Part shown: one piece after another, positions 2,143-35,390 of the stretch
How the letters are laid out: every line of letters begins with the position of its first letter
Position numbering within the stretch: position 1 is the first letter of the stretch
From: Verrucomicrobiota bacterium
GTDB taxonomy: Bacteria > Verrucomicrobiota > Verrucomicrobiia > Chthoniobacterales > UBA10450
Reading direction: 5' to 3'
Assembly (NCBI GenBank): GCA_003218475.1
Contig: QHNR01000124.1
Span: 1-35,970 of the forward strand
DNA length: 35,970 bases
Program-made: the position numbers and the translations under genes
Notes under the pieces: generated by a model
Seen by the model: the letters and a program-made list of their open reading frames with translations, nothing else
Databases searched by the model: none
Told to the model about the DNA's origin: nothing

Positions 2143-2168
2143 GCATATAGGACCTTAATCCTATACGT
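2143..2168. repeat. Short palindrome, left member of an inverted pair
   Basis: The bases gcatataggaccttaatcc (2143-2161) recur in inverse orientation at 2759-2777 with one mismatch (18/19). The site is itself palindromic (ATAGGA-CCTTAA-TCCTAT). A related hairpin is at 28857-28881. It brackets a segment of about 635 bp that holds one F2 and one F1 remnant. Confidence 0.6.
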
Positions 2169-2263
2169 CCGCCGGTTGGAATCAATCGCTGAGACGCAGC
2201 CGCAACTACAACCGGGTTTGCTGAGATTGTCAGCGATGATTTCCCAGTCCTTCTTCCGCCACC
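2165..2263 (-). pseudogene. F2 family remnant (N-terminal half)
   Basis: Minus-strand coding remnant of the F2 small-protein family. The readable part is WEIIADNLSKPGCSCGCVSA followed by IDSNRRT, matching residues ~4-30 of the intact copy at 11788-12003. The C-terminal half (ADEKLTAFLELE) is missing. Confidence 0.75.
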
Positions 2264-2531
2264 AAGGCGTCGCTCCGTATGAAAGTAGGGACGCGCCGGA
2301 AGGAAAAACCGACGCGCCCCTCGCCTCACGAAATTTAAAGATCACGCTACGATCAACTTATCGGATCGCAAGTCCTGGTTGGCCTTGTGATTCTTCCAGG
2401 TCTTCGGCGGCGTGTTTGGATAGCAAAATGTGGCCGGGAGTCGCCGCAATGTTACCCACGCTAATGACGGCAGCTTAATGGTCGTCACGGTTTGGTGGGA
2501 CGCGTAGGGATTGGTTACGATTCGCTCACCG

Positions 2532-2765
2532 ATGTCGGAAGCACGCCATACCTACGAAATCCGCCCGCGCAAAGATAAACGCGGCGTCGATCTAATCTCC
2601 GATGCACTGCCATTCCGTCGGTTGTGGTATGGCGAGCCGAACGCAGTCAGCAACGCAGTTGACTACGAAGTCTTCAGCCGCTCACGCGATGCTGCCTTCT
2701 CCGAAAAGACAGGCTCGGCGGCCTGGGCGCTTCAAAAAACATCGGCCCTAAACGCATTGGACTAA
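2532..2765 (+). CDS. F1 family small protein, N-terminal half intact, divergent C-terminus
   Basis: The ATG at 2532 opens a 77-residue frame. Residues ~5-50 are the best preserved F1 N-terminus in the window: YEIRPRKDKRGVDLISDALP, then LWYGEPNAVSNA. After SRSRDAAF the sequence leaves the family consensus, so the usual SHDAVIRVYDEAGNVIETHEH...FKEW ending is replaced. It may still be translated, but I regard it as a damaged family member. The frame can be extended upstream to TTG 2511. Function unknown; no signal peptide or membrane segment. Confidence 0.55.
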   Translation: MSEARHTYEIRPRKDKRGVDLISDALPFRRLWYGEPNAVSNAVDYEVFSRSRDAAFSEKTGSAAWALQKTSALNALD

Positions 2766-4912: not shown

Positions 4913-5377
4913 ATGCAATCGATCCCGATATTTTCCATCCTAATTGCAAGCGCGACCTCGTTGCTGGCAATCGAGGTAGCGTCTAGCCGTCCCCAGTCCG
5001 GGGAGAAGTCGGCATCACTGCCAGCTCCCGTCAGCAAGGAAAAGTTCACTTTGCAACAGATCGAGCAACAGAAGCATGAGCTAGAAGATAAGATCGTTCT
5101 TATCGAGATAACGCTGGTCGGCGGCGGTGACATTGGCCATGGCATGTTACATTACTTTGCCAAGGATACATCGGGATCCGCCATGCCTTACGGCCGGCTT
5201 GACATTCCGCGCGAAGATTTGCAGAAAATGCGCTTAGCGCAGAATCCGCACCACAACGGTCCATTCAAGATCTACGCGCGTGTCCACGTCTTCCCAGAGA
5301 AAAAAGCGGTCGCTATTTGCGTCGCGGTCGGGATGCATGTTTCTGTCGAAAACGGCAAAGCAATTTACTCCTGGTGA
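4913..5377 (+). CDS. Secreted hypothetical protein
   Basis: Unrecognised. I prefer the ATG at 4913 over 4874 because it puts a signal peptide (MQSIPIFSILIASATSLLAI) at the N-terminus; this gives 154 residues. A Gln/Glu/Lys-rich helix (LQQIEQQKHELEDKIVLIEI) follows. The C-terminal domain is beta-rich (FKIYARVHVFPEKKAVAICV, then VGMHVSVENGKAIYSW). No motif identifies a function. An F1 tail begins only 6 bp after its stop, the tightest gene-F1 junction in the window. Confidence 0.6.
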   Translation: MQSIPIFSILIASATSLLAIEVASSRPQSGEKSASLPAPVSKEKFTLQQIEQQKHELEDKIVLIEITLVGGGDIGHGMLHYFAKDTSGSAMPYGRLDIPREDLQKMRLAQNPHHNGPFKIYARVHVFPEKKAVAICVAVGMHVSVENGKAIYSW

Positions 5378-5383
5378 ACTTCC

Positions 5384-5443
5384 GATTCAGCGGACAACGT
5401 GATCGAGAAGCATGAGCACGTTGGCGATTTCAAAGAGTGGTGA
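5384..5443 (+). repeat. F1 family remnant (C-terminal tail)
   Basis: In-frame tail DSADNVIEKHEHVGDFKEW followed by TGA, 6 bp downstream of the preceding gene's stop. The upstream two thirds of F1 are absent. Confidence 0.8.
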
Positions 5444-5554
5444 GCGGTTTGTGCATCAGGTCACGCACGCTATCAAACATCTTTTCGGCTTGCTCTCGGC
5501 GGGACTCGTCGTTAAAACGCTGCTACGAAATAATTTGGGGGAGCCCATTTGAAC

Positions 5555-5740
5555 ATGAAAAAACAAATCCCAAACATCAATATGGTTCGATCCGCTTGGC
5601 GCCGAGTCAAAAAGGACATAAAGGACGCCATAATTCGTGACCTCAAGCCAGTAAAAGACGTCAAAGGTGGCGGCGGTGTTCAGGGCGAATCCAAACCCAC
5701 CACAGGTGCGGGCACTAAGGGCACCACAGGTGGCCAATAA
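5555..5740 (+). CDS. Small peptide with a KDVKGG motif (possible RiPP-type precursor)
   Basis: The ATG at 5555 follows a purine-rich ribosome-binding site (gggggag at 5537-5543), giving a 61-residue peptide. The N-terminal half is a basic amphipathic leader (VRSAWRRVKKDIKDAIIRDL). It ends in LKPVKDVKGGGG, and the remaining ~25 residues are Gly/Thr/Ser/Lys-rich (KPTTGAGTKGTTGGQ). A short leader ending in Gly-Gly followed by a low-complexity core is the layout of peptides processed at a double glycine. That is inference only: no maturase, protease or transporter is encoded nearby. It could also be an ordinary disordered small protein. Confidence 0.5.
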   Translation: MKKQIPNINMVRSAWRRVKKDIKDAIIRDLKPVKDVKGGGGVQGESKPTTGAGTKGTTGGQ

Positions 5741-5798
5741 TAAGGATAAAGTCGCACCATCGTTCGGTACGCGAAATCGTAATTCAAATTAGACATTA

Positions 5799-5968
5799 CC
5801 GATCTGATTTCCGATGCGCTGCCATTCGGCCTGCTGTGGTGCGGCGAGCGAAACGCAGTCAGCAACGTAGTTGACTACGCAAAGTTTCGCAGCCGTTCAC
5901 TTCAGCGCTGTGATTCGCGTTCACCATGAAGCGGGCAACGCGATCGAGACGCGCGAGCAAGCGGGAGC
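5799..5968 (+). pseudogene. F1 family remnant (near full length, frameshifted)
   Basis: Readable pieces are DLISDALPFG, SNVVDYAKFRSRS and, in another frame, the tail equivalent to GNAIETREQAG. At least one frameshift occurs at the SHDAVIRV position (ttcacttcagcgctgtgatt). The 340-bp gap between 5741 and 6080 holds only this remnant and a short segment (about 5977-5990) resembling the edge of F2. Confidence 0.75.
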
Positions 5969-6080
5969 CAACCTGTCAAGCCAATTCGCCGCAAGCGAAC
6001 TGATTTAGTTCGACTCAAAACTGAGAAAAAGATACGATTTCCACAGCTGGACAGCAAAACAGTCACAAGGAGATCACGAC

Positions 6081-6383
6081 ATGACGACGAAAGCATTATT
6101 GGTTAAACTGGAAGCGAAACCAGGCAAAGAAAAGGAAGTCGCTAAATTCCTGCGCGACGGGCAGGGCTTGGTTGCACAAGAGCCCTCAACAACCGCCTGG
6201 TTCGGCATTCGACTTGGCCAAACCTCCTTCGCCATCTTCGACGCATTTCCGGATGATGCCGGACGCGACGCGCATCTGTCAGGAAACATTGCCAAGGCGC
6301 TGATGGAGAAAGCGCCCGAGCTACTGGCGGAGCCGCCGAAAATTGAGAAGGCAGACGTATTGGCAGACAGGTTACCGGGTTAA
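6081..6383 (+). CDS. ABM-domain (antibiotic biosynthesis monooxygenase-like) protein
   Basis: This 100-residue protein has the dimeric ferredoxin-like ABM fold pattern: ALLVKLEAKPGKEKEVAKFL (first strand and helix), then TAWFGIRLGQTSFAIFDAFP (strands 2-3) and a final helix with SGNIAKALMEKAPELL. The ATG is preceded by a strong Shine-Dalgarno (aaggag, spacing about 8). ABM proteins act as small cofactor-free oxygenases or as stress-related dimers; the substrate cannot be told here. It stands alone, and an F1 tail lies 100 bp downstream. Confidence 0.85.
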   Translation: MTTKALLVKLEAKPGKEKEVAKFLRDGQGLVAQEPSTTAWFGIRLGQTSFAIFDAFPDDAGRDAHLSGNIAKALMEKAPELLAEPPKIEKADVLADRLPG

Positions 6384-6482: not shown

Positions 6483-6569
6483 TTTTACAGGGACGCTGTC
6501 ATCCGTGTTTGCGATGAGGCGGGCCATGAGATCGAGACGCACGAGCAGGCGGGCGAGTTCAAAGAGTGA
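6483..6569 (+). repeat. F1 family remnant (C-terminal third, open)
   Basis: An uninterrupted 28-codon stretch reads FYRDAVIRVCDEAGHEIETH then EQAGEFKE and TGA. Compared with other copies most base differences fall in third codon positions, so the tail was shaped by selection on protein before it became a fragment. Confidence 0.8.
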
Positions 6570-6666
6570 TGAGTGATGCTGGTATGCACTCGGCCTCTAC
6601 TTGCACCTGCAGACGGGTGGCAGCCGCTCGCTCTCTACTGAAGTGCCAGTCGGGAGCCCGTCATTG

Positions 6667-7421: not shown

Positions 7422-8077
7422 ATGCTGCCCTGATCCAGATTGGAAAAGATTGCCAGTTCCGCTGACGAATTAATTGGCGCTTGGGGATAAATAAGACGAG
7501 AATGTCGTCTGCACGCGCTCAAGAAATGCGAGTCAACGCTTTTTCTTAAGAGATTTTCCGATCGCAGATCACCAAGGTCGCGAAGCTGCAGCAGACAAGC
7601 AATTTTCGCAGTGGTGCAGTGCGGCCCGCAGGATCTTGCGTCATCGGACTCCTAGCACATCTTCGCCTGCCGCAGCGAAAAGCATCGGCCAGCGCGTTTT
7701 GCCATCCCATCGCACGTCCTTCCTGTTCTGCTTCGACGGCGACGGCATCTCCAATGCGTTCTCGTGCTGGAGGAAGATATCGCTCTCGAAATTTCACCCA
7801 AAACGCCGACACAGCCAGCACTCAATCCGGCCGTCCTGATTCAGATCTTTGCAGATTTTTGAGAAAATCGCGCCGAGTTGTCAAAACAATTCGCCGCAAG
7901 CGCGAATTGCTGATTCGAGTTCCAGAAACGCGGTCAGCTTTTCATCCGCGTACACAACGAACCGACCATTCGAGTTGCCATCAGGACAAGTCCGTGTAAA
8001 GGCTGGTTAAAGTCAATGCGAGACGATTTTCGCAAAACTGATACAGTACAAAAGACGAAAGCCTAGGAATGTAAGTT
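7422..8077. other. Long non-coding stretch with an F2 remnant; no supported gene
   Basis: Several short overlapping frames exist on both strands (for example 7546-7821 minus and 7636-7839 plus), but none shows a recognisable motif, ribosome-binding site or clean composition. The only identifiable content is the F2 remnant at about 7905-7972 and a possible scrap of the same repeat at about 7510-7540. Confidence 0.5.
7905..7972 (-). pseudogene. F2 family remnant (C-terminal part)
   Basis: Minus-strand reading gives FVVYADEKLTAFLELES, matching the last third of the intact F2 copy. It is preceded on the plus strand by tcgccgcaagcgcgaat, a flank that also borders the F2 copy at 10735. Confidence 0.75.
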
Positions 8078-8557
8078 ATGAACAGCGGCCCAACACTCAG
8101 CATCGGTGCGACTGGTCACGATGTACGAAGACTTCAACGTATCTTTGTGATGACTAAAGCACTCGTTTTTAGCGACATTACCGGAAGCTTCGACGTCACG
8201 ACAGAACAGGCTGTTAAAGATTTCCAACAAGGCGCGGGTTTGACAGTAGACGGCATCGTCGGGCCTGCAACATGGCAGGCGCTCCCAGCCGATCCACATA
8301 CGTCGGTATTATCTCGTGGTGCGTCAGGCAGCGTTGTGACAGCATTACAACAAGGTCTCAAGAAGTATTCAACTCCGGCGACGGATCCGGGTCTGGTGGA
8401 CGGTGATTTCGGGCCCAAGACCGAAGCCGCTGTCAAAGCCTACCAACAGGATCGAGCTGTCCACGTGGACGGGATCGTCGGCGATCAGACATGGTGGGTT
8501 CCCGCGGGTGCCGCGGGTGCTACTCTCGCTTCGCTTTCCGGACTTACGACGATATGA
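8078..8557 (+). CDS. Double peptidoglycan-binding domain protein
   Basis: The 159-residue product is built of two PG_binding_1 repeats. The first is LSIGATGHDVRRLQRIF ... AVKDFQQGAGLTVDGIVGP (residues ~6-65). The second is LSRGASGSVVTALQQGL ... AVKAYQQDRAVHVDGIVGDQ (~76-140). Each has the typical ATxxAVKxFQ and DGIVGxxTW signatures. No signal peptide is visible, so export would need another route, or the protein is the binding part of a lost larger enzyme. The C-terminal ~18 residues are Ala/Gly/Ser-rich. It binds cell wall by family knowledge; no catalytic domain is attached. Confidence 0.88.
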   Translation: MNSGPTLSIGATGHDVRRLQRIFVMTKALVFSDITGSFDVTTEQAVKDFQQGAGLTVDGIVGPATWQALPADPHTSVLSRGASGSVVTALQQGLKKYSTPATDPGLVDGDFGPKTEAAVKAYQQDRAVHVDGIVGDQTWWVPAGAAGATLASLSGLTTI

Positions 8558-8599
8558 TTTGACTGGGCTAAGGCTTCAGTGACTGGCCGCACGACACGC

Positions 8600-8670
8600 C
8601 GATTCGAGTTCTAAAAACGCGGTCAGCTTTTCCTTCGCACGCACAACGAAACGCTTTTCGTTGCCGCGAT
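8600..8670 (-). pseudogene. F2 family remnant joined directly to an F1 remnant
   Basis: Minus-strand F2 C-terminal segment (plus-strand phrase gattcgagttctaaaaacgc then ggtcagctttt). It stops at cgcgatg and continues without a gap into a plus-strand F1 segment. A copy at 10735 breaks at nearly the same place. Confidence 0.7.
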
Positions 8671-8736
8671 GATCATCGCGGCGTGAATCTGATTTCCGAC
8701 GCGCTGCCTGTGGTACGCTGAGCCAAACGCAGTCGG
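8671..8736 (+). pseudogene. F1 family remnant (N-terminal middle)
   Basis: Readable as RGVNLISDALP, then a deletion removes FGRL and the frame shifts (tgtggtacgctgagccaaac). The C-terminal part of F1 is absent. Apart from the two fragments and the hairpin at 8925, the gap 8558-9002 holds nothing I can support. Confidence 0.65.
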
Positions 8737-9002: not shown

Positions 9003-10490
9003 TTACGGTTCGTTCGCGACTACTTGCGGCGCAGGTTTGTTCACTTCAAGCTGGGCGCTGACTTTTTGCAAGCCGGCAGTAAGCGCCTCAATTTGCTTCT
9101 GCTGCTCACCGACAATCGCTTTCAAGTCTTGCATTTGATGATGCTCTTTGAGGAACTCATTCAGCAACATGGCGTTGATCTGGTCGTAGCGCACGCTGTA
9201 GGGTTTTCCTTCTTTGTCGCGCACCACCAAGTCCGGATTCACCTTCTCCACCTCTTCGGCCACAAGGCCGAACTGCGATCTTGCGGCTGGGTCAATCTCC
9301 TTTTTGTATCGGAAGGTAACCGGTTTGAGCTCCAGGAGCGCTTCACTGGATTTGCCGATGGGCTTGATGTCTTCCTTAAAACGCTTTGAGGAAGTGATTG
9401 TACCGAGCCTATTATTTGCATCAATGAAAACGGCACTTCCTGAGGGAGCCATTGCATTGAAGATGTTGCCAATAAAACAGCTGTCGCTTATGTCCTGACC
9501 TTGAACACCGATAGCAATAACGTTATTAGACGTGGTAACGGCCAGGCCAGCGAACTCGCCCACCGCGATGTTGTTGCTGCCACTCGTGTTGTTCGAGAGC
9601 GCAGCTTGACCGACGGCTATATTGTGGCTGCCGTCCATGTTGGTAAAGAGCGCTGCACCGCCGACGGCAGTGTTTTCAATGCCGGAGACATTAACTGGAA
9701 GCGCAGACACACCGACGGCCGTATTGGAGTTCCCGGTGTCATTGCTTGCGAGCGCAAAAGCACCAACGGCGGTGTTGGAACCGCCATCAGTGTTACTGAA
9801 GAGCGCCCCAGTGCCAACTGCCGTGTTGAAACTGGCAAAGCCGTTTCCGCTCGAGTCATTATTAAAAAGCGCGGCATTACCAATGGCAGTGTTCTCTCTG
9901 GCGTTAATATTGGAAAAAAGCGCGGCATCGCCAAAAGCGCTGTTGGTCGTTCCGTCGACGTTGCTGGTAAGCGCGAAGTTGCCAAAAGCGTTGTTGCCGT
10001 TGGCATGACCGAGGCCGCTCGAGTCATTATTATAGAGCGCAAAGGAGCCGACAGCATTGTTGCCGCTGCCGGTCAAGTTGTTGACGAGCGCATTAGTTCC
10101 AACGGCCACGTTCTGAGAGCCGCTGAGGTTGAGTATCATCGCTGCGGTGCCAACTGCGGTATTGGAATTCCCATCGGTCCCGGCCCCTGTTCGACTGGTG
10201 AGGGCCAGCGTTCCAGCACCAAGAGCGGTGTTGAAGCTGGCGTCACCGGCTAAAAAGTTGGAATACCAACCAACTGCTGTGTTTCCTATGCCGCCGAGGA
10301 GCTGATGAAGGGCGTTGCACCCTTCCGCTGTCGTGAACGCGGGATAGCACCCGTCCGGGTTCCCGGGTATCTCCGGGGGTAATTGCGCTTGCATTGTTGG
10401 CAAAAACGCACAGCAGGCAAGCACGGACAGGATCGATGTGAATATTTTGAGGCGAGTTTTCATTAGCTTAATTTTCCTTTTTTCTTTCAT
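9003..10490 (-). CDS. Secreted surface protein with YadA-like repeats and C-terminal S74 chaperone domain
   Basis: The 495-residue protein has a signal peptide around residues 10-35 (MKTRLKIFTSILSVLACCAF). Residues ~70-340 are at least ten imperfect repeats of 22-28 residues with the pattern NTAVGxxALxxN, like YadA/trimeric autotransporter head repeats. A peptidase S74 (intramolecular chaperone) domain follows from residue ~367: SSKRFKEDIKPIGKSSEALL, FGLVAEEVEKVNPDLV, YDQINAMLLNEFLKEH. The final ~50 residues are coiled coil. Ser367 and Lys372 keep the spacing of the S74 Ser-Lys self-cleavage dyad, though the usual Asp after the Ser is Ser. Such domains guide trimer folding of fibres. Start could be 10490 (agaagg site) or 10463 (aagga site), the latter giving a cleaner signal peptide. 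Confidence 0.87.
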   Translation of the reverse strand: MKEKRKIKLMKTRLKIFTSILSVLACCAFLPTMQAQLPPEIPGNPDGCYPAFTTAEGCNALHQLLGGIGNTAVGWYSNFLAGDASFNTALGAGTLALTSRTGAGTDGNSNTAVGTAAMILNLSGSQNVAVGTNALVNNLTGSGNNAVGSFALYNNDSSGLGHANGNNAFGNFALTSNVDGTTNSAFGDAALFSNINARENTAIGNAALFNNDSSGNGFASFNTAVGTGALFSNTDGGSNTAVGAFALASNDTGNSNTAVGVSALPVNVSGIENTAVGGAALFTNMDGSHNIAVGQAALSNNTSGSNNIAVGEFAGLAVTTSNNVIAIGVQGQDISDSCFIGNIFNAMAPSGSAVFIDANNRLGTITSSKRFKEDIKPIGKSSEALLELKPVTFRYKKEIDPAARSQFGLVAEEVEKVNPDLVVRDKEGKPYSVRYDQINAMLLNEFLKEHHQMQDLKAIVGEQQKQIEALTAGLQKVSAQLEVNKPAPQVVANEP

Positions 10491-10600: not shown

Positions 10601-10734
10601 AGCAAACCTGACTCCCAAAGTGTTTTCCCAAAAGTTCAATGCTGTGTCAACAAGAAAAGCTAAAAGAGAGAACGCGCTGAAAGCTGCACTTCCGCGCACG
10701 CCTGGCTCCCATGAGCAAACAGGCGTACCGATCA

Positions 10735-10835
10735 TTCGTCGCAAGCGCGAATCGCCGATCCAAGTTTAACGAACGCAGTCAACTTCTAATCCGCTTGCAC
10801 AACGAAACGCTTTCCGTCGTCGCGATGCGCCGAGG
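10735..10835 (-). pseudogene. F2 family remnant (C-terminal half)
   Basis: Minus-strand F2 tail with several substitutions and small shifts; plus-strand phrases cgcagtcaacttctaatccg and cacaacgaaacgcttt correspond to ADEKLTAFLE and RFVV. It breaks off at gtcgcgatgcg, close to the break in the 8600 copy. About 25 bases further on, 10858-10905 shares the phrase gagcgttct-gcggcctcgtacg with 26715-26745. The rest of 10600-10955 shows nothing. Confidence 0.65.
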
Positions 10836-10955
10836 AACTTCGGATTTTTTGCAGTCGCGACAGCCGGGGCCGTCCTCTGAGCGTTCTAGCGGCCTCGTAC
10901 GCTGACAAAATTTTCAGATCGACCGCGCAGCTTTGGTTTGAGATAACTGTTCGCC

Positions 10956-11216
10956 ATGAGCACAGATGAACCTTTTAGGACTGACTATGAGTTTTTGAAA
11001 GGAGTCGATTATATTTTTGTGTCCCTCGACCGGAATCTGTCCGGCGAAGAATGCCACGAACTTGCCGAGAAGTATTTTGAGACTCATAAAGGGATGACTT
11101 TGCCCGGACAGGCGTTGCGTGTTGATTTGCGCCCGGCGTTTCGGAAACCGTTAGCTGATGTCACGGCCAAATTCCGCGCTGTTTCTGTCGGCCATACTTT
11201 CACGCCACAGCGATGA
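10956..11216 (+). CDS. Hypothetical protein
   Basis: Unrecognised 86-residue soluble protein. The sequence has a balanced protein-like composition with strand- and helix-like parts: YIFVSLDRNLSGEECHELAE, KYFETHKGMTLPG, then ALRVDLRPAFRKPLADVTAK. The ATG at 10956 is the first in the frame; no strong Shine-Dalgarno precedes it. No signal peptide or motif. An F1 remnant starts 12 bp after the stop on the same strand. Confidence 0.55.
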   Translation: MSTDEPFRTDYEFLKGVDYIFVSLDRNLSGEECHELAEKYFETHKGMTLPGQALRVDLRPAFRKPLADVTAKFRAVSVGHTFTPQR

Positions 11217-11368: not shown

Positions 11369-11414
11369 TAAACTTGCTTGCGCTTGCCGGGCGGCTGAGC
11401 TTGTGGCTTGTTTT

Positions 11415-11810
11415 ATGAACTATCGAACGTTGACTGTCGCGGTGGCGCTTATCGCTGTTCGCTTGGTCGTTCCCTTCGCCTCCGCTGAGCCAAAAGCCTA
11501 CGACACCGTTTTCTACAAGGGGAAGGCGGCTGGCCTGAGAATCGTCTTTGAGTTCGACCACGGCCATGTGGAGGCCAGCAATGTCAAGATCACCGAACCT
11601 GCCAGTGGTAAAACAACGAAGTTTTATCTGTCGGGTAGAGATGGACAGACGGGAACGGGCAAGATACGATTTGCTCCTGTGAAGGGCGCAAAAAAAGAGG
11701 TTTTGTTAGAGATGGATCCGCTTGGCGATCCTCAGTCCACTATCAAGGGCAGTTATACGGCCGCCGGAAAAACTGTTCCGTTCACTCTTACAAAAAGGAA
11801 GAAGCACTGA
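11415..11810 (+). CDS. Secreted hypothetical protein
   Basis: Unrecognised. ATG 11415 is preferred to 11403 because MNYRTLTVAVALIAVRLVV followed by PFASAEP is a good signal peptide. The mature part (~105 residues) is beta-rich: TVFYKGKAAGLRIVFEFDHG, TTKFYLSGRDGQTGTGKIRF, then a Lys-rich end. It could be a small periplasmic beta-sandwich. Its last 23 bp overlap the 3' end of the convergent F2 gene. Confidence 0.6.
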   Translation: MNYRTLTVAVALIAVRLVVPFASAEPKAYDTVFYKGKAAGLRIVFEFDHGHVEASNVKITEPASGKTTKFYLSGRDGQTGTGKIRFAPVKGAKKEVLLEMDPLGDPQSTIKGSYTAAGKTVPFTLTKRKKH

Positions 11811-12003
11811 ACGGCTCAACTGCCGCTTCAAGCTCAAGAAACGCAGTCAGCTTTTCATCCGCGTGCACAACAAAACGCTTTTCGTTGTCGCGATGTGCGT
11901 CTGCAATCCAGATCGTTCGCCCGCGAGAATCAATCGCTGAGACGTAGCCCAAACTCCAACCGGCTTTCTTGAGATTGTCAGCAATGATTTCCCAGTACTT
12001 CAC
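11788..12003 (-). CDS. F2 family small protein, intact copy
   Basis: The only unbroken F2 copy: 71 residues from a GTG start. It reads KYWEIIADNLKKAGWSLGYV, SAIDSRGRTIWIADAHRD, KRFVVHADEKLTAFLELEAA. The pattern suggests one compact alpha/beta domain: an N-terminal helix, two strands around GRTIWIADAH, and a C-terminal helix. No catalytic signature or signal peptide is seen and I do not know its function. Five further fragments of the same family lie in this window, all coding on the minus strand. It ends convergently with the gene at 11415-11810 and lies 64 bp before tRNA-Val. Confidence 0.65.
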   Translation of the reverse strand: MKYWEIIADNLKKAGWSLGYVSAIDSRGRTIWIADAHRDNEKRFVVHADEKLTAFLELEAAVEPFSASSFL

Positions 12004-12067: not shown

Positions 12068-12139
12068 GGGCGGTTAGCTCAGCGGTAGAGCATCTCGTTT
12101 ACACCGAGAGGGTCGGGGGTTCGAAACCCTCACCGCCCA
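12068..12139 (+). tRNA. tRNA-Val (anticodon UAC)
   Basis: Full cloverleaf: acceptor stem gggcggt pairs with accgccc, D-arm with gctcagcggtagagc, anticodon stem tctcg/cgaga with loop tttacac (anticodon TAC), T-arm gggggttcgaaaccctc. CCA is not encoded. It marks the junction between the repeat-rich left block and the core-like block. Confidence 0.96.
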
Positions 12140-13080: not shown

Positions 13081-13216
13081 ACAATGACGAAATCCGAATG
13101 CCGAATGTCGAAGGAATGACTGAATGACGAATACCGAAAAAGCGTTGCATCTTCATTTGTCATTCTAGCTTCGTCATTGATTCGTCATTCGACATTCGTG
13201 CTTCGGCATTTCACAA
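13081..13216. repeat. Inverted-repeat element rich in 'acgaat/attcgt' units
   Basis: Left arm: cgaatgccgaatgtcgaagg, aatgactgaatgacgaa. Right arm: ttcgtcattgattcgtcatt followed by cgacattcgtgcttcggcat. The arms are imperfect inverse complements and fill the space between the divergent racemase and MFS genes. A second copy of the type is at 22590-22735. Confidence 0.75.
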
Positions 13217-22589: not shown

Positions 22590-22735
22590 TGAATGACGAA
22601 TGTCGAATGTCGAAGCTCGAAAGAATGAGTAATGACGAATTGCGAAGAAACGGAAGACCGCATCGACTTCGTTTTGGTCATTGGGACTTCGTCATTCCTT
22701 CGTCATTCGTCATTCGGATTTCATCATTTGCTCCT
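22590..22735. repeat. Inverted-repeat element rich in 'acgaatg/cattcgt' units
   Basis: Left arm tgaatgacgaatgtcgaatg, then tcgaaag; right arm cttcgtcattccttcgtcat, then tcgtcattcgga. Same type as 13081-13216, again placed between two divergent genes (serS and the DUF4126 gene). Confidence 0.75.
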
Positions 22736-26470: not shown

Positions 26471-26845
26471 CTTTTGCCAATGAAAAATAGGCTTTTTCGG
26501 TCTCTCAAAAGCCCAAAGTCAGAACATAAAGTCAGACTACGTCCATGATTGTCGTTCGATTCCCGGTTGAGCCTATTTCACCAATGACAACCAGATCATG
26601 AGCCGGTTTGGTGGCTGAGTTTCGTTCTGATAGGCTCATTCCCGGGCCTGTGCCGCCCGAATTTCTGCGTTTGGCCGTCCGAGCGGGTCAAGCAGCGGCT
26701 GAGGGACTCCGAGCGTTCTGGCGGCCTCGTACGTGTGACACTCCCAAACGATTCCGCTTCCTAAATGCCGAATGATTCGGCACAATTCTCGCCTGGCAAA
26801 AACAGACACTGCTCAAGCGGTGCCAGCGTATTGACGACAACGAAA
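26471..26845. other. Region after tRNA-Gly, no gene seen
   Basis: No supported frame. The phrase gagcgttctggcggcctcgt at ~26718 also occurs (one mismatch) at ~10878. I looked for a repeated tRNA 3' end (attachment site) just downstream and saw none. Confidence 0.45.
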
Positions 26846-27505
26846 ATGCGACACTTCGACCTGTTTGTTTCAATAATTGGAGGAATGGCGGCGGCGCTGC
26901 TGTCAATGGATGCAAATGCCAGCGAACCTTTCGTTGATGTCCGGTCCGTTGATCCGACGATCACGGTTGAGTTGCGCTACGCAGGCCGAAATAATTTCCT
27001 TGGATATTCGCTTTATCCCCTCGGAACACCCGCACTCGCTCGTCCCGAAGTCGCCTCAGCCTTGCCTGTGGCCCAGGCCTTTCTGCGGCGCTACCAATGC
27101 GGCATCAAAATCTGGGATGCGTATCGGCCGGCGGCGGTGCAGGTCAAGCTTTGGCAAGCGTCCCACAACAGTGATTATGTCGCGAACCCTGAAATCGGCG
27201 TCGGCTCGCTGCATAGTTGGGGTATCGCCGTCGATGCTACTCTGGTGGATTCATGGAATCGCCCCGTCCGCATGCCAAGTGACTTTGATGATTTTACGCC
27301 GGCTGCAATGTGGCGTTACATGGGTTCCTCCGATGAAATACGCGCACATGTGCGTTTGCTGCAGTACGCAATGCACAAGGCCGGGTTTTGGGGGTTACGT
27401 ACTGAGTGGTGGCATTTCACGATTGCTGACTGGCAAAAATACTTGCCGCAGGAGGTAAGGCGATCTGCTCAGGTCTGCGGAACCCACTGGGAAGGTAAAT
27501 TGTGA
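26846..27505 (+). CDS. VanX-like D-alanyl-D-alanine dipeptidase (M15D), exported
   Basis: ATG 26846 gives 219 residues with a signal peptide (MRHFDLFVSIIGGMAAALLS, ending near ANAS). The family zinc and catalytic residues are all visible: SLHSWGIAVD (His123, Asp130), EWWHF (Glu and His near the C-terminus) and Arg94 in WDAYRPAAVQ. VanX-type enzymes hydrolyse D-Ala-D-Ala; stand-alone exported versions probably recycle wall dipeptide. No vanH/vanA neighbours, so a glycopeptide resistance role is not supported. A damaged paralogue is at 31321 and an F1 remnant follows. Confidence 0.9.
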   Translation: MRHFDLFVSIIGGMAAALLSMDANASEPFVDVRSVDPTITVELRYAGRNNFLGYSLYPLGTPALARPEVASALPVAQAFLRRYQCGIKIWDAYRPAAVQVKLWQASHNSDYVANPEIGVGSLHSWGIAVDATLVDSWNRPVRMPSDFDDFTPAAMWRYMGSSDEIRAHVRLLQYAMHKAGFWGLRTEWWHFTIADWQKYLPQEVRRSAQVCGTHWEGKL

Positions 27506-27536
27506 TCGAGAGCCTGGTCCGTGGTTTGCGGCAGCC

Positions 27537-27801
27537 ACGTTTACAAAGTGCGCCCCCGCAAAGATCATCGCGGCCTCAATCTGATGTCCGATGCTCTGCC
27601 ATTTGGGGCTGTGGTACGGCGAGCCAAACGCAACCGATTTCGTGATTAAAAGATTACCGCCCCCCACACCGACGGTGTGAAGGGCGGCTGTTCCCCCCAG
27701 AACAATCGTGGAAATCTTCGACGGTACTAAATCAGCGTCCAGTAAAGCTTTGCAACGTAATCGAGACGCATGAGCACAAGGGGTAAGTCTCAAGAGTGGT
27801 G
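27537..27801 (+). pseudogene. F1 family remnant split by a ~100-bp insertion
   Basis: N-terminal part reads VYKVRPRKDHRGLNLMSDAL then shifts (27537-27650). The tail NVIETHEHKG, a stop, and caagagtggtga resume at 27751. The intervening ~100 bases include a hairpin (ccccccacaccgacggtgtg) and do not belong to F1. It begins 32 bp after the VanX-like gene. Confidence 0.75.
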
Positions 27802-28314: not shown

Positions 28315-28502
28315 CGCCTCCAAAGTCGCTAGTGATCGAGGCGGCCGCCTTTGCGCGTTCGCAGGATTTTCCCGTGACACTTCAGGGGTGATTCGTAATC
28401 CCTCTTTCGAGGGAGCGAATCAATCGAAGGAAGGAGACGGGACCTGAAGCTAAAAGAGCAGCGGCCACCAAGCGGCCAGCAATGCCGTCCAATTACGCGC
28501 AA

Positions 28503-28601
28503 TTCTACAGCCGCTCACATGATGCTGTGATTCGCGTTTATGATGAAGCTGGCAACGTGATCCAGACGCACGAGCACGCGGGAGATTTCAAAGAGCCGTG
28601 A
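28503..28601 (+). repeat. F1 family remnant (C-terminal third, open)
   Basis: Uninterrupted FYSRSHDAVIRVYDEAGNVI then QTHEHAGDFKEP and TGA. This is the best preserved F1 C-terminus in the window. The upstream part (about 28470-28502) is only faintly similar. Confidence 0.85.
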
Positions 28602-29155
28602 AGTTCTCTACCAATCGCCGCTTATCCGCGGCGGCTCCTCCGTTTGGTAGCCTTTGTTATGACATTCGCACCTTCAATAGGCCCGTAAAGCCATTGGAGA
28701 GTTTTCTCCCCATATCATACGCTCTTCTGGCGGGCTGACCATAAACGGTGGTACACAATATCCAATGCGCTTCTTTTACGCCAAGTATGAAACTTTTGAT
28801 GCTGTATTTCATTCTGCCTACTTAATTGGGAGATCTTACCAGCACTCTCGACAGCCGTATATGGGACTTTCGTCCTATACGTTTAAGAACCGCAAAGACG
28901 GCAATGGAATCGGCGAAATCGCTGGATTTGCTAGACTCGAAACTCGCACCAGATGATCAAACCGCTTCCCCGGACTGACCGGAAGATCGTCCGCATCGCC
29001 TGAAACATGCGCTCGCCAACAAGAAGCGGTCAATCTTTTGCAAAATACGCCCGAGTGCATTCACCGGCTCAGGTAAATTACGTTATTCACACCTGGCAAA
29101 AGAGGGAGAGCCTTAAAACCAATCTGGGGTGTCTTCTGATTCAGAAAGGAAGGAA
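28602..29155. other. Non-coding stretch with a short palindrome
   Basis: At 28857-28881 the phrase gtatatgggactttcgtcct plus atacg is a hairpin of the same type as 2143-2168. A 63-codon frame at 28765-28956 shows no motif, contains the palindrome, and is not accepted as a gene. Confidence 0.45.
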
Positions 29156-29653
29156 ATGAGCACACTAATAAACTGGAATCCGTTTGGAGAACTCGACGAG
29201 CTGCAAAACCGGCCTGGCGGTTTCTTCTTCGACGGCTTCCCAAATCGAATGGGATTTCCGAATCGCATGGGAAACGGCGATGGCCTGAAGTTAGCCGATT
29301 GGTCACCACTGGTTGATATCACTCAGGACGATCAGGAATATCTCTTCAAAGCAGATCTGCCCGAGATGAAGAGATGGTCCGAGATCGATGCTGAGATTTT
29401 AAGCTTTCTTGCACGGTCGGGTTCTACCTCGATAAGTATCAACGAATGCGTCAGCAACGCGGAAATCTTTGAATCAAAAGCCCATTATCGTCGGATTGGG
29501 TTCAGTTTGCTTCATCATCTGACTTCTCGCCGCCATCCATCCGGTGGGATCGACAAGCGTCGGTCCTCGAGAATTTCTTGGTTATTTTTGTCGCAATTCT
29601 TTTTTGTTAACGCCTGCCCGCAAATGACAAAAACACCTAATCAATCGGTGTAA
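29156..29653 (+). pseudogene. Truncated Hsp20 small heat-shock protein, chimeric tail
   Basis: Good Shine-Dalgarno (aaaggaagg) before ATG 29156. Residues 1-72 match the N-terminus of the intact Hsp20 at 34559 (TLINWNPFGELDELQNR ... ADWSPLVDITQDDQEYLFKA-DLPEMK). Directly after DLPEMK (about base 29371) similarity stops and an unrelated 90-codon tail follows, so the alpha-crystallin core is lost. The segment FPNRMGFPNRMG is an internal 15-18 bp duplication absent from the intact paralogue. Not expected to be a working chaperone. Confidence 0.75.
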
Positions 29654-29668
29654 TCGCTGGCCGTCGCG

Positions 29669-29850
29669 ATGACTACCTCACAACACGTTTACGAAGTCAG
29701 ACCGCGCAAAGATAAACCGCGGCGTCGATCTCATTTCCGATGCGCTGCCATTTGGTCGGCTGTGGTACGGAGAGCCAAACGCAATCAGCAATGCAATCGG
29801 GCACGCGAAGCATCGCAGCCGTTCACATGATGCTGTGATTCGCGTTTACG
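29669..29850 (+). pseudogene. F1 family remnant (near full length, one frameshift)
   Basis: ATG 29669 starts TTSQHVYEVRPRKDK, then one extra base near 29717 shifts the frame. The second frame continues GVDLISDALPFGRLWYGEPN, AISNAIGHAKHRSRSHDAVI, then RVY and breaks at 29850 into other sequence. The C-terminal tail NVIETHEH is lost. Confidence 0.85.
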
Positions 29851-30301: not shown

Positions 30302-30400
30302 GTTTACAGCCGTTCACATCAGGCTGTGATTCGCGTTTACGATGAAACGGGCAACGTGATCGAAACGCACGAGCAGGAGGGGCGAGTTCAAGGAGCCGTA
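30302..30400 (+). repeat. F1 family remnant (C-terminal third)
   Basis: Reads VYSRSHQAVIRVYDETGNVI then ETHEQEG before a one-base shift in the FKE tail (ggcgagttcaaggagccgta). Confidence 0.8.
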
Positions 30401-30501
30401 AAACTTTTCGTCCCATCACGTTTTTATCATTGACTTATATGCTTTGATTTGCTTGGAATTCTGAGTCGTTGGGACAAACTTTAACCAAAAAGGAGAAATA
30501 G

Positions 30502-31251: not shown

Positions 31252-31276
31252 CTGTCGGCAGCCATCCAAATGTACC

Positions 31277-31309
31277 GCGGCGTCCGGAATCTCGGACGCC
31301 GCTTTTTTT
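31277..31309 (+). terminator. Rho-independent terminator of the outer-membrane protein gene
   Basis: Perfect 10-bp stem gcggcgtccg / cggacgccgc with loop gaatct, followed by seven T. Confidence 0.93.
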
Positions 31310-31320
31310 GGAGTCCAACA

Positions 31321-31743
31321 ATGAGATGTTTCATTCTGCACGCGGTGCTGGTCGTGGCGGGAGATTGTGTGAGAGCGCAAAGTGTTATCCCGCTCGTCGA
31401 TATTAAATCGGTTGATCCGACTATCGTCATCGAGTTGCGCTATGCTGGTGCAAATATTCTCGCGGGGCGGGCATTATATCCGCCAGGGACTCCGGCCTTG
31501 GTGCATCCCGAAGTGGCGCTGCCCTTAGTCGCAGCACGAGGCATTTCTGCAGCGCTACAAATACGGACTAAAATTTTGGGATGCTTATCGCCGTCGATCC
31601 GTGCAGATGCTGCAATGTGGCATTACCGAGGTGCTGACCCGGCGATTCGCTTGCATCTGCATTTGCTGCAGACCGCGATGCGAGATGCCGGTTTTGACGG
31701 GCAGCCGATAGAGTGGTGGCAGTTCGTGATAGCCGATTGGTAA
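31321..31743 (+). pseudogene. Broken VanX-like dipeptidase (paralogue of 26846-27505)
   Basis: The N-terminus (signal peptide, then VDIKSVDPTIVIELRYAGAN, LYPPGTPALVHPEVALPL) and C-terminus (GADPAIRLHLHLLQTAMRDA, IEWWQFVIADW) match the intact gene. Between them the frame is shifted around 31540 and the section with the SxHxxGxxxD zinc motif is deleted (junction near 31605-31615). The terminal EWWHF has become EWWQF. Enzymatic activity is not possible. The old C-terminal coding sequence continues past a stop created at IADW. Confidence 0.85.
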
Positions 31744-31790: not shown

Positions 31791-31838
31791 ATCGTGATCG
31801 AGGCGCACGAGCAAGCGGGCGAGTTCAAAGAGTGGTAG
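31791..31838 (+). repeat. F1 family remnant (last 16 codons)
   Basis: Reads VIEAHEQAGEFKEW with TAG, fused to the decayed 3' end of the VanX pseudogene. The join lies at the shared phrase gtgatcgag, also present at the end of the intact VanX gene (27502-27510). Confidence 0.8.
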
Positions 31839-31986
31839 GGCGATCAAAATGTTTGCGACTACCGGGTCAGTGCTGCCCATCTGTCAACGGCAAGGATTAA
31901 TTCGATCTGAATCAATTGCCCCAGTTTTGCTCGGAGCGTTGTGAAAGTTAATTTGTCGAAAGCGACAGAGCGGTTATTTAATAGGT

Positions 31987-32307
31987 ATGGAACTGTCGCT
32001 TAAAGCGTTAGAAGAAGCGGTCTCGATCCGTCGACAAATAGATACTCTGGAAAGACGCCTCGCTTCACTCTTCGCGACTGCTTCATCACGTGTAAAGTCC
32101 GAAACCCACAGACGAACGATGTCTGCGGCGACCCGTGCTAAACTCGCGGCGGCCGCCAGAGCTCGTTGGGCCAGACTGAAGGCTGGTAAGAAGAAGGGTC
32201 GAACGACCACGGCCAAAAAAAAGGGTGGAATCACCCCTGCTGGACGGAAGAGGCTTTCCCAACTGATGAAGGCCCGTTGGGCGGCGAGAAGAAAAGCTGC
32301 TGCCTAA
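31987..32307 (+). CDS. Small basic, probably DNA/RNA-binding protein
   Basis: A 106-residue protein with an N-terminal helical part (ELSLKALEEAVSIRRQIDTL then ERRLASLFATA). Two similar basic motifs follow: SAATRAKLAAAARARWARLK and TPAGRKRLSQLMKARWAARR. They are joined by a Lys-rich linker. The RxKLxxAxxARW pattern resembles NUMOD3-like or histone-H1-like basic repeats. I infer nucleic acid binding. An F1 remnant follows 28 bp after the stop. Confidence 0.7.
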   Translation: MELSLKALEEAVSIRRQIDTLERRLASLFATASSRVKSETHRRTMSAATRAKLAAAARARWARLKAGKKKGRTTTAKKKGGITPAGRKRLSQLMKARWAARRKAAA

Positions 32308-32334: not shown

Positions 32335-32531
32335 ACACCAAAGATCGACGTGGGGTCGATTTGATTTCGGATGCGCTGCCATTCGGTCGCTTGTGGTACG
32401 GCGAGCCGGATGCAATCAGCAATCGGTTACGCAAAGTTTTACAGCCGCTCACATGATGCTGTGATCCGCGTTTACGACGCCGCTGGCAGCGTGATCGAGA
32501 CACACGAGCACGCCCGGCGAGTTCAAAGAGG
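32335..32531 (+). pseudogene. F1 family remnant (near full length, two frameshifts)
   Basis: First frame DRRGVDLISDALPFGRLWYG, then EPDAISN. A 5-base loss at a gcaat repeat shifts to SAIGYAKFYSRSHDAVIRVY and DAAGSVIETHEHA. One extra C then shifts the FKE tail. Both lesions are small slippage-type changes. Confidence 0.85.
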
Positions 32532-32819: not shown

Positions 32820-32961
32820 TCACGGCGGGAGAGTCGGGCCAAAGGCGCCGCTGACAAAGACGTTGTTGTTCATGTACCAGATCGCCGTTTGGAGCGTGAG
32901 TGGGTTGGCGAGCACATAGTCTGGTTTGGAATCGCCGTTGAAATCGCCCACCGCTAGCCTC
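32820..32961 (-). pseudogene. FG-GAP/VCBS repeat fragment
   Basis: Minus-strand frame AVGDFNGDSKPDYVLANPLT followed by AIWYMNNNVFVSGAFGPTLP is a typical FG-GAP (VCBS) beta-propeller blade with its Ca-binding DFNGDxKxD loop. No start or full gene is present. The fragment abuts the F1 remnant that begins at 32962. It is the leftover of a large secreted or surface protein. Confidence 0.75.
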
Positions 32962-33033
32962 ACATGATGCTGTGATTCGCGTTTTCGACGAGGCGGGCAA
33001 CGTGATCGAGACGTATGAGCACAACGGCGAGTC
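32962..33033 (+). repeat. F1 family remnant (C-terminal third)
   Basis: Reads SHDAVIRVFDEAGNVIETYE then HNGESS, with the FKEW end replaced. The left border meets the FG-GAP fragment. The right border continues into a ~90-bp leader shared with the Hsp20 gene. Confidence 0.8.
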
Positions 33034-33128
33034 CTCAATGTGCACAAGATTCGGGTCGACTCAGACAACAAGCGGTGAGCGCGATGCACCGAGATGGCTT
33101 TAACTGAGTGCAAGAAAGGATTTAAAAC
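33020..33128 (+). repeat. Duplicated upstream segment, copy 1 (copy 2 at 34450-34558)
   Basis: The order gagcac..cgagtcctcaa-gt-cacaa, then ggtgagcgc-atg-acc, then gatggctttaactga is shared by both copies, each ending a few bases before the ATG of an unrelated gene. Both copies start within an F1 tail. Confidence 0.8.
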
Positions 33129-33682: not shown

Positions 33683-33694
33683 GCGACGACATTT

Positions 33695-33748
33695 TGATTC
33701 AAGTTCCACAAACGCAGTCAGCTTCTCATCTGCACGCACAATGAAACA
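33695..33748 (-). pseudogene. F2 family remnant (C-terminal tip)
   Basis: Plus-strand phrase gattcaagttccacaaacgc, then agtcagcttctcatctgcac, corresponds to ADEKLTAFVELES on the minus strand. Upstream part missing. Confidence 0.7.
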
Positions 33749-33911: not shown

Positions 33912-34328
33912 ATGTTCACTCGAACGACCGAACCCACGGCCCACGCAAACGAATCGGCCAGACCATCTGTCGTCCCAGGGCCATCCAACCACACGTTAAT
34001 GCCAACGCAATCCGGCCCTATTCTCTCCCAAGGAGTTTTGATCAAAGGCTCGATCAAATTCCTGAACGAGTTGCTCATCGACGGCGAGGTGGAGGGCACA
34101 ATCGATTCCACCGGAACGCTCACGATCGGGGAGCACGCGCGCATACGCGGTGAGATCAGGACGAAATCGGTGAAGGTGCTAGGGACGGTGGAGGGCAATA
34201 TTTTCGTGACTGAACTCTGCGAACTCCAGGCGGGTTGCACGGTGCGTGGTGATATCGAAGCGCCCCGGCTGGTGGTTAATGAGAACGTGACATTCCTTGG
34301 CAACGCAAAGGTCGGGACGGGGAAGTGA
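33912..34328 (+). CDS. Bactofilin
   Basis: The 138-residue protein has a disordered, Pro/Thr-rich N-terminus (~40 residues). A bactofilin right-handed beta-helix core follows: ILSQGVLIKGSIKFLNELLI, DGEVEGTIDSTGTLTIGEHA, RIRGEIRTKSVKVLGTVEGN, ELQAGCTVRGDIEAPRLVVN. Bactofilins polymerise into cytoskeletal filaments at the membrane and take part in shape or stalk formation. ggagga lies about 15 bp before the ATG. No M23 peptidase gene, a common partner, is adjacent. An F1 remnant follows the stop by 18 bp. Confidence 0.93.
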   Translation: MFTRTTEPTAHANESARPSVVPGPSNHTLMPTQSGPILSQGVLIKGSIKFLNELLIDGEVEGTIDSTGTLTIGEHARIRGEIRTKSVKVLGTVEGNIFVTELCELQAGCTVRGDIEAPRLVVNENVTFLGNAKVGTGK

Positions 34329-34345: not shown

Positions 34346-34472
34346 GACTGGCGAACCGAATGCAGTCAGCAACGCAAAGTTCTAAGCCTTTTCACATGAC
34401 GCCGTGATTCGCGTTTACGATGATGCGGGCAACGTGATCGAAACGCACGAGCACGTAGCCGAGTCCTCAACG
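34346..34472 (+). pseudogene. F1 family remnant (C-terminal two thirds)
   Basis: gaaccgaatgcagtcagcaa corresponds to EPNAVSN, followed by a deletion and SHDAVIRVYDDAGNVIETHE, then HVAESS. The border then continues into the leader shared with 33020-33128. Confidence 0.8.
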
Positions 34473-34558
34473 TACACAACATTAGGTTCAACCCTGACAA
34501 TAACCGGTGAGCGCAATGTACCATGATGGCTTTAACTGAATCCAGAAGGTAAAATAAA
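34450..34558 (+). repeat. Duplicated upstream segment, copy 2 (before Hsp20)
   Basis: Matches 33020-33128 over about 90 bases, including gatggctttaactga just upstream of the ribosome-binding site. The transition into the coding sequence differs (ccagaaggtaaaataaaatg). Confidence 0.8.
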
Positions 34559-35026
34559 ATGAATACATTGAATAAAGTAATAACATGGAATCCGCTTAGA
34601 GAGATCGACGAAGCGCAAAATCGCTTCAATCCGTTTTTCTTGGCCAGATTTCCGAACAGAATGGGCAGTGGGGCGATCGACAGCCTGTCGGTCGCAGATT
34701 GGTCACCGGACGTTGATATCAGTGAGGATGATCGCGGGTATCTCCTCAAAGCTGACCTGCCTGAAATGAAGAAGGATGACGTTAGGGTAACAGTCGAAGA
34801 TGGCATCCTCTGCGTTTCCGGAGAACGCAAAAGCGTGAAGGAAGATCAGAAAAGGAAATTCCATCGCATCGAGCGCTCCTTTGGTACCTTCGAACGCAGC
34901 TTCACGCTGCCTGAAGATGCCGATAGCACGAAAGTGACGGCGGAGTTCCACGACGGAGTGCTGAAAGTGCATCTCCCGACAACGCCGATAGCAAGATCAA
35001 AAGCTATCGAAGTTCAAGTGAAATAG
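34559..35026 (+). CDS. Hsp20 / alpha-crystallin small heat-shock protein
   Basis: ATP-independent holdase that binds unfolding proteins. The 155-residue product has an N-terminal arm (TLNKVITWNPLREIDEAQNR). The complete alpha-crystallin domain runs from ADWSPDVDISEDDRGYLLKA-DLPEMKKDDV through VTVEDGILCVSGERK, FGTFERSFTLPEDAD and FHDGVLKVHLPT, ending in KAIEVQVK. The GVLKVHLP motif is diagnostic. Preceded by agaagg; the upstream ~90 bp are shared with another gene. The N-terminal half is paralogous to the truncated copy at 29156. Confidence 0.96.
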   Translation: MNTLNKVITWNPLREIDEAQNRFNPFFLARFPNRMGSGAIDSLSVADWSPDVDISEDDRGYLLKADLPEMKKDDVRVTVEDGILCVSGERKSVKEDQKRKFHRIERSFGTFERSFTLPEDADSTKVTAEFHDGVLKVHLPTTPIARSKAIEVQVK

Positions 35027-35320: not shown

Positions 35321-35390
35321 GTTCAGTGATTCGCTTTTACGACGAGGCTGGCAACGTGATCGAAACGCACGAGCACGCGGTGGCCAGTAG
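35321..35390 (+). repeat. F1 family remnant (C-terminal part)
   Basis: Reads SVIRFYDEAGNVIETHEHAV and then leaves the consensus (ggccagtagcgg). Confidence 0.78.

Follow-up and report, generated by a model that had tools for sequence, protein, structure and literature searches.

Two mirrored families of small proteins in the window

The window, meaning the whole stretch of 35,970 nt analysed here, corresponds to positions 1-35970 of contig C94 in its own genome G000, a metagenome-assembled genome (MAG) of 195 contigs and 3.16 Mb with 83% completeness. Dispersed copies of two small-protein families, designated F1 and F2, lie in it (Table 1). The original prediction described one intact F2 copy and five fragments, all coding on the strand opposite to F1. 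Translation bore out the intact frame of 71 residues, while tblastn and nhmmer recovered the five fragments within a few tens of bases of the predicted positions and placed all six F2 copies on the minus strand and every F1 copy of the window on the plus strand. An additional F2 copy lies barely beyond the window (C94:36856-37058, minus strand). The nhmmer bounds of the five fragments are slightly narrower in part than the ranges of Table 1 (2167-2260, 7846-7964, 8521-8671, 10726-10830 and 33695-33747). Self-BLAST aligned F2 copies over 50-126 nt at pairwise DNA identities of 76-84% (E-values between 1e-7 and 1e-21), so this likeness is not due to chance. The F1 and F2 copies sit at 2.1-12.0 kb and 27.5-35.4 kb, amid small unrelated genes, and the core-gene stretch at 13-26 kb (dnaX, serS and others) contains neither.

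Table 1 Features of the F1/F2 islands in the window
Feature	Position	Strand	Evidence
F2 fragment (start half)	2166-2260	-	nhmmer, tblastn
F1 copy	2525-2694	+	nhmmer
F1 end fragment, 6 nt past the stop of gene 5051-5377	5383-5454	+	nhmmer
F1 fragment; with 5383-5454 brackets the block common to G007:C165	5800-5966	+	nhmmer
F1 end fragment, downstream of gene 6081-6383	6492-6581	+	nhmmer
F2 fragment (end half)	7846-7976	-	nhmmer, tblastn
F2 fragment (end half)	8521-8677	-	nhmmer, tblastn
F2 fragment (end half with a single in-frame stop)	10726-10860	-	nhmmer, tblastn
F1 end fragment, 12 nt past gene 10956-11216; left border of the block shared with G000:C35	11228-11404	+	nhmmer
Cargo gene between F1 fragment and F2; gene end overlaps F2 end	11403-11810	+	
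F2, intact 71-residue frame, GTG start	11788-12003	-	translation; predicted alpha-beta-beta-beta-alpha (dsRBD-like) fold
tRNA-Val(tac), neighbour of intact F2, kept in species G015	12068-12139	+	
F1 start fragment, directly behind VanX-like gene 26765-27505	27525-27635	+	nhmmer
F1 end fragment	28472-28610	+	nhmmer
Degenerate attC left arm (CCTAATCAATCGGTGTAATCGCTGGC), immediately 5' of F1	29636-29661	+	arm PWM, score above 99% of background
F1 copy, start region fused to attC left-arm remnant	29654-29850	+	nhmmer
F1 end fragment	30303-30422	+	
F1 end fragment, behind second VanX-like gene	31793-31879	+	
F1 copy, downstream of gene 31987-32307	32339-32530	+	
F1 end fragment	32959-33033	+	
F2 fragment	33686-33747	-	nhmmer, tblastn
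F1 end fragment, 21 nt past bactofilin-like gene 33912-34328	34349-34456	+	
F1 end fragment, behind Hsp20-like gene	35325-35380	+	

The window holds several further features. Two VanX-like paralogues (26765-27505 and 31270-31743) and two Hsp20-like paralogues (29129-29372 and 34557-34772) lie in direct order within the F island, each pair with about 66% DNA identity. The F1 end fragments at 32959-33112 and 34391-34544 have 80-90 nt more in common on their 3' side (82% identity), including a CGGTG...CACCG hairpin. A near-palindromic repeat of about 130 bp, which matches in both orientations, is present at 13083-13210 and 22592-22729 and is unrelated to F1 and F2. The minus strand at 9003-10490 encodes a protein with repeated NTAVG-type motifs, the C-terminal part of which resembles, by eye, an intramolecular chaperone domain of tail fibres or adhesins.

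Coding signature, decay and predicted fold

Judged from their sequences, F1 and F2 are genuine protein-coding families, mostly present as decayed copies. The similarity shared among F2 copies starts at the GTG or ATG start codon, that among F1 copies stops at the stop codon, and substitutions in both fall mostly at third codon positions. Pooled pN/pS was 0.34 for F1 and 0.38 for F2, and median pairwise dN/dS was 0.22 and 0.27, respectively. The majority of copies are truncated and several carry stop codons; 106 of 136 F1 matches extend to the gene end and only 43 to the gene start. Neither family matched Pfam, NCBIfam or PHROGs, and comparison with PDB sequences gave nothing convincing.

The structure model of F2 (pLDDT 89) has the order alpha-beta-beta-beta-alpha, as does the double-stranded RNA binding domain (dsRBD), and dsRBDs were its best Foldseek matches, with TM-scores up to 0.69 and probabilities up to 1.0. 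F2 is thus predicted to be dsRBD-like in fold, at an E-value of only ~1e-2 and an identity of ~10%, and the canonical RNA-contact motifs of dsRBDs were not evident by eye. The F1 model was of lower confidence than that of F2 and gave no credible Foldseek match.

Distribution of the families

We infer that the window comes from an uncultured soil bacterium, Candidatus Udaeobacter or its GTDB equivalent. Candidatus Udaeobacter ranks with the most abundant bacteria of soil (PMC7343977). F1 was found in all 35 genomes of the genus and F2 in 33 of them; G000 alone gave about 70 F1 and 40 F2 matches. Outside the genus, F2 occurred in a minority of the genomes from the family's remaining genera and was nearly absent from the rest of the order. 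Among the plasmids searched there was no F1 or F2, and the viral contigs searched yielded one F2 and no F1. Both families are almost confined to Candidatus Udaeobacter and its near relatives. F2 contigs assigned to Acidobacteria and Deltaproteobacteria MAGs (L160, L168 and L234) are probably mis-binned Udaeobacter contigs. Every genome used is a draft MAG; assemblies break at the islands, and a good many F copies are located close to the end of a contig.

F1 and F2 are linked and mirrored

An F1 copy was found less than 2 kb from F2 in 49 of 70 cases, against about 5.5 expected (G000, 23 of 38 against about 3; the relative G007, 26 of 32 against about 2.5), so the proposed linkage holds beyond the abundance of the two families. 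The coding strands were opposite in 47 of the 49 linked cases (22/23 in G000 and 25/26 in G007), and 74 of 76 adjacent F1-F2 pairs with a spacing below 4 kb, counted on strong matches, had the mirrored orientation. The suggestion that F1 and F2 are parts of one element stands as far as linkage and mirroring go; they do not form one compact element, as diverse cargo lies between them. Nor do they move together as an adjacent unit, since the cargo between them varies and either can be swapped in behind one cassette end. An adjacent, co-transcribed pair, as in toxin-antitoxin systems, was not seen in Udaeobacter, where F1 and F2 lie apart on opposite strands.

Dictation of orientation by the upstream gene was ruled out, as plus-strand genes are followed by F1 on the plus and F2 on the minus strand in the window and by the reverse in contig C79. 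Array polarity was uniform irrespective of the strand of the open reading frames, as in integrons and in clusters of attC sites lacking integron-integrases (CALINs). The mirrored look of F1 and F2 would arise because F polarity follows that of attC, that is, of the array.

Cassette-like organization of the F islands

F1 and F2 alternate with unrelated cargo nearly one to one, and the F elements begin at distances from a few up to some tens of nucleotides 3' of cargo stop codons. Blocks common to several loci start and stop within F1 or F2. The window segment 11255-11901, comprising an F1 piece, the gene at 11403-11810 and an F2 piece, recurs at C35:18204-18847 with 91% identity; C15:19356-20093 matches C57:5043-5783 (94% identity) and window 5395-5959 matches G007:C165 (83% identity), both with F on either side. 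Block ends were scattered within F1 and F2, with no hot spot at a single site. These blocks show modularity and not, by themselves, a recombination mechanism; since F sequence fills the gaps between cargo genes, they are also compatible with a duplication and a later deletion.

One and the same cargo gene, together with its attC left arm, precedes F2 in C79 and F1 in C60 (94% identity over 426 nt), so that at this joint either family can take the place of the other. The stretch with the intact F2 of the window and tRNA-Val is kept in the species G015, where similarity stops at the F2 C-terminus and a different gene is attached, so the cassette was swapped at the F2 end. Among the matches listed for G015 near this conserved F2, a stop codon lies within the frame, so it is not obvious that selection maintains the intact F2 frame in the two species alike. 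Three F1 copies in G000:C23 (6826-7120 and 10712-10769) and G000:C173 (17094-17345) have one downstream junction in common (GAGCACGGCAATCCAACAGAAGCACGG); this joint is recent, and copies of it lie at several loci.

Integrons of the genus and attC remnants at F copies

IntI scored above the curated cut-off in 10 of the 35 genus genomes, and contig C340 of G015 (L102 and L107) carries a real attC array of at least six sites adjoining IntI. On this sequence evidence, Candidatus Udaeobacter has bona fide integrons; no paper on them was found in the library searched. The IntI search of G000 itself returned only short fragments and Xer-like matches. At loci L090-L099, IntI frequently lies at contig ends. 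The stretches of intact, IntI-adjacent arrays that were read contained no F1 or F2.

Solitary attC left arms (R''-L'') were found at about 10 non-redundant loci, which are among the best preserved, each followed within 1-55 nt by F1 on the plus or F2 on the minus strand and all in canonical polarity; attC remnants thus mark cassette ends here, as expected of an integron or CALIN. With an arm position weight matrix (PWM) built from about a dozen sites and a threshold of 15, left flanks of F copies contained 10 forward left arms against 3 in three control combinations together. A recognisable arm survives in no more than a few percent of the F copies. Right arms 3' of F were rarer than left arms and only weakly enriched in the PWM test, with clear cases behind F2 in L251 and behind F2 and F1 in G007:C114; at no locus was an F clearly flanked by the two arms. 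The attC covariance model gave zero matches in the window, and no cluster of at least two intact attC sites, as would mark an integron or CALIN, occurs in the island. Other F contigs contain scattered intact attC sites, mostly sharing the F polarity. In genome G162 (L246, G162:C54), F2 lies near nine complete attC sites, and in the minus-strand stretch 5619-6082 its frame shares a 4-nt overlap with a frame weakly resembling F1, which weakly hints at an ancestral F2-F1 operon.

Origin of the F1/F2 arrays

On balance, and with modest confidence, we interpret F1 and F2 as joint genes of old cassette arrays in Candidatus Udaeobacter that lack an integrase and descend from a chromosomal integron. 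Each array unit would comprise a cargo gene and, originally, an attC site, after which the following cargo gene starts with a leader of its own. The distal portion of attC would have been replaced by F1 in the sense or by F2 in the antisense orientation. The IntI of the genus would formerly have assembled the arrays. F1 and F2 may have inserted into the loop region of attC and thereby disabled its hairpin, leaving the arrays able only to lose, duplicate or swap modules via homologous or illegitimate recombination while the F copies decay.

The main alternative, which we consider less likely, is that F1 and F2 were ordinary cassettes, merely very numerous ones, in an integron that has since decayed (CALIN); each would once have had its own attC, and deletions would have joined the left arm of the cargo to F. 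Fixed polarity, multiplicity, decay and attC remnants would all be accounted for, and the nine complete attC sites near F2 in the related genome G162 point the same way. However, F tracks the cargo almost one to one, beginning a few nucleotides past the stop codon, and the right arm of the previous cassette, expected directly 5', is not enriched before F. Entry of the F genes into the attC loop is our tentative preference over the remains of over-abundant ordinary cassettes with decayed attC.

The remaining explanations are much less probable. Were F1 and F2 strand-polarised chromosomal repeats oriented by replication, their strong concordance within contigs, even over the 14-kb core-gene stretch of the window, would follow; but polarity changes inside contigs C15, C60 and C138 and, among the matches listed, between distant copies in G011:C176, G015:C188 and G006:C28. 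F polarity also showed no correlation with GC skew, a weak test as skew is almost absent here, and we regard this origin as improbable. A shade less credible is that F1 and F2 form a family of non-autonomous mobile elements, MITE-like or retro-copied, with gene ends as their target. Its dispersed, often 5'-truncated copies would be expected to sit just past stop codons, as F copies do, yet the moved blocks consist of cargo plus F pieces and the similarity is restricted to the coding frame, which is under coding-type selection. The conserved non-coding ends and terminal inverted repeats of MITE and REP elements were not apparent, similarity beginning at the start codon in F2 and ending at the stop codon in F1. 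Least credible of all is that one ancestral F1-cargo-F2 block was duplicated locally in tandem and then decayed: direct repeats would retain polarity automatically and the VanX-like and Hsp20-like cargo is repeated in the window, but neighbouring cargo is mostly unrelated and the same cargo adjoins F1 at one place and F2 at another.

The joint-gene interpretation has a bolder extension, in which attC sites of this lineage carry whole genes in their hairpin loop (F1 sense, F2 antisense) and the proteins act on attC or cassette RNA, so that the sites would encode their own cofactors. F2 would here contribute a hairpin-binding, dsRBD-like fold. We consider this extension as a whole unlikely, though less so than the replication, mobile-element and tandem-duplication explanations. 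If the F proteins do act in recombination, integron sites would encode proteins. The mirrored F1/F2 pair is also a simple marker with which to locate and read cassette arrays in soil metagenomes, and the arrays provide a test case for the death of integron arrays and the replacement of attC.

Relation to known systems

Among known systems, the F islands are closest to compare with sedentary chromosomal integrons and CALINs, the latter being clusters of attC sites without IntI (PMC8618304). The F arrays share with them a common array polarity and diverse single-gene cargo; their left arms match the genus's own attC, and IntI is present in the genus. In contrast, the F joints are two protein-coding sequences in fixed sense or antisense orientation rather than intact attC hairpins, and the window lacks an attC cluster. 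Some elements are inserted in attC sites in a fixed orientation, namely IS1111-attC elements and group IIC-attC introns. F1 and F2 resemble them in their proposed insertion into attC with fixed orientation, but comprise only 70-80 codons and have no transposase, reverse transcriptase or ribozyme.
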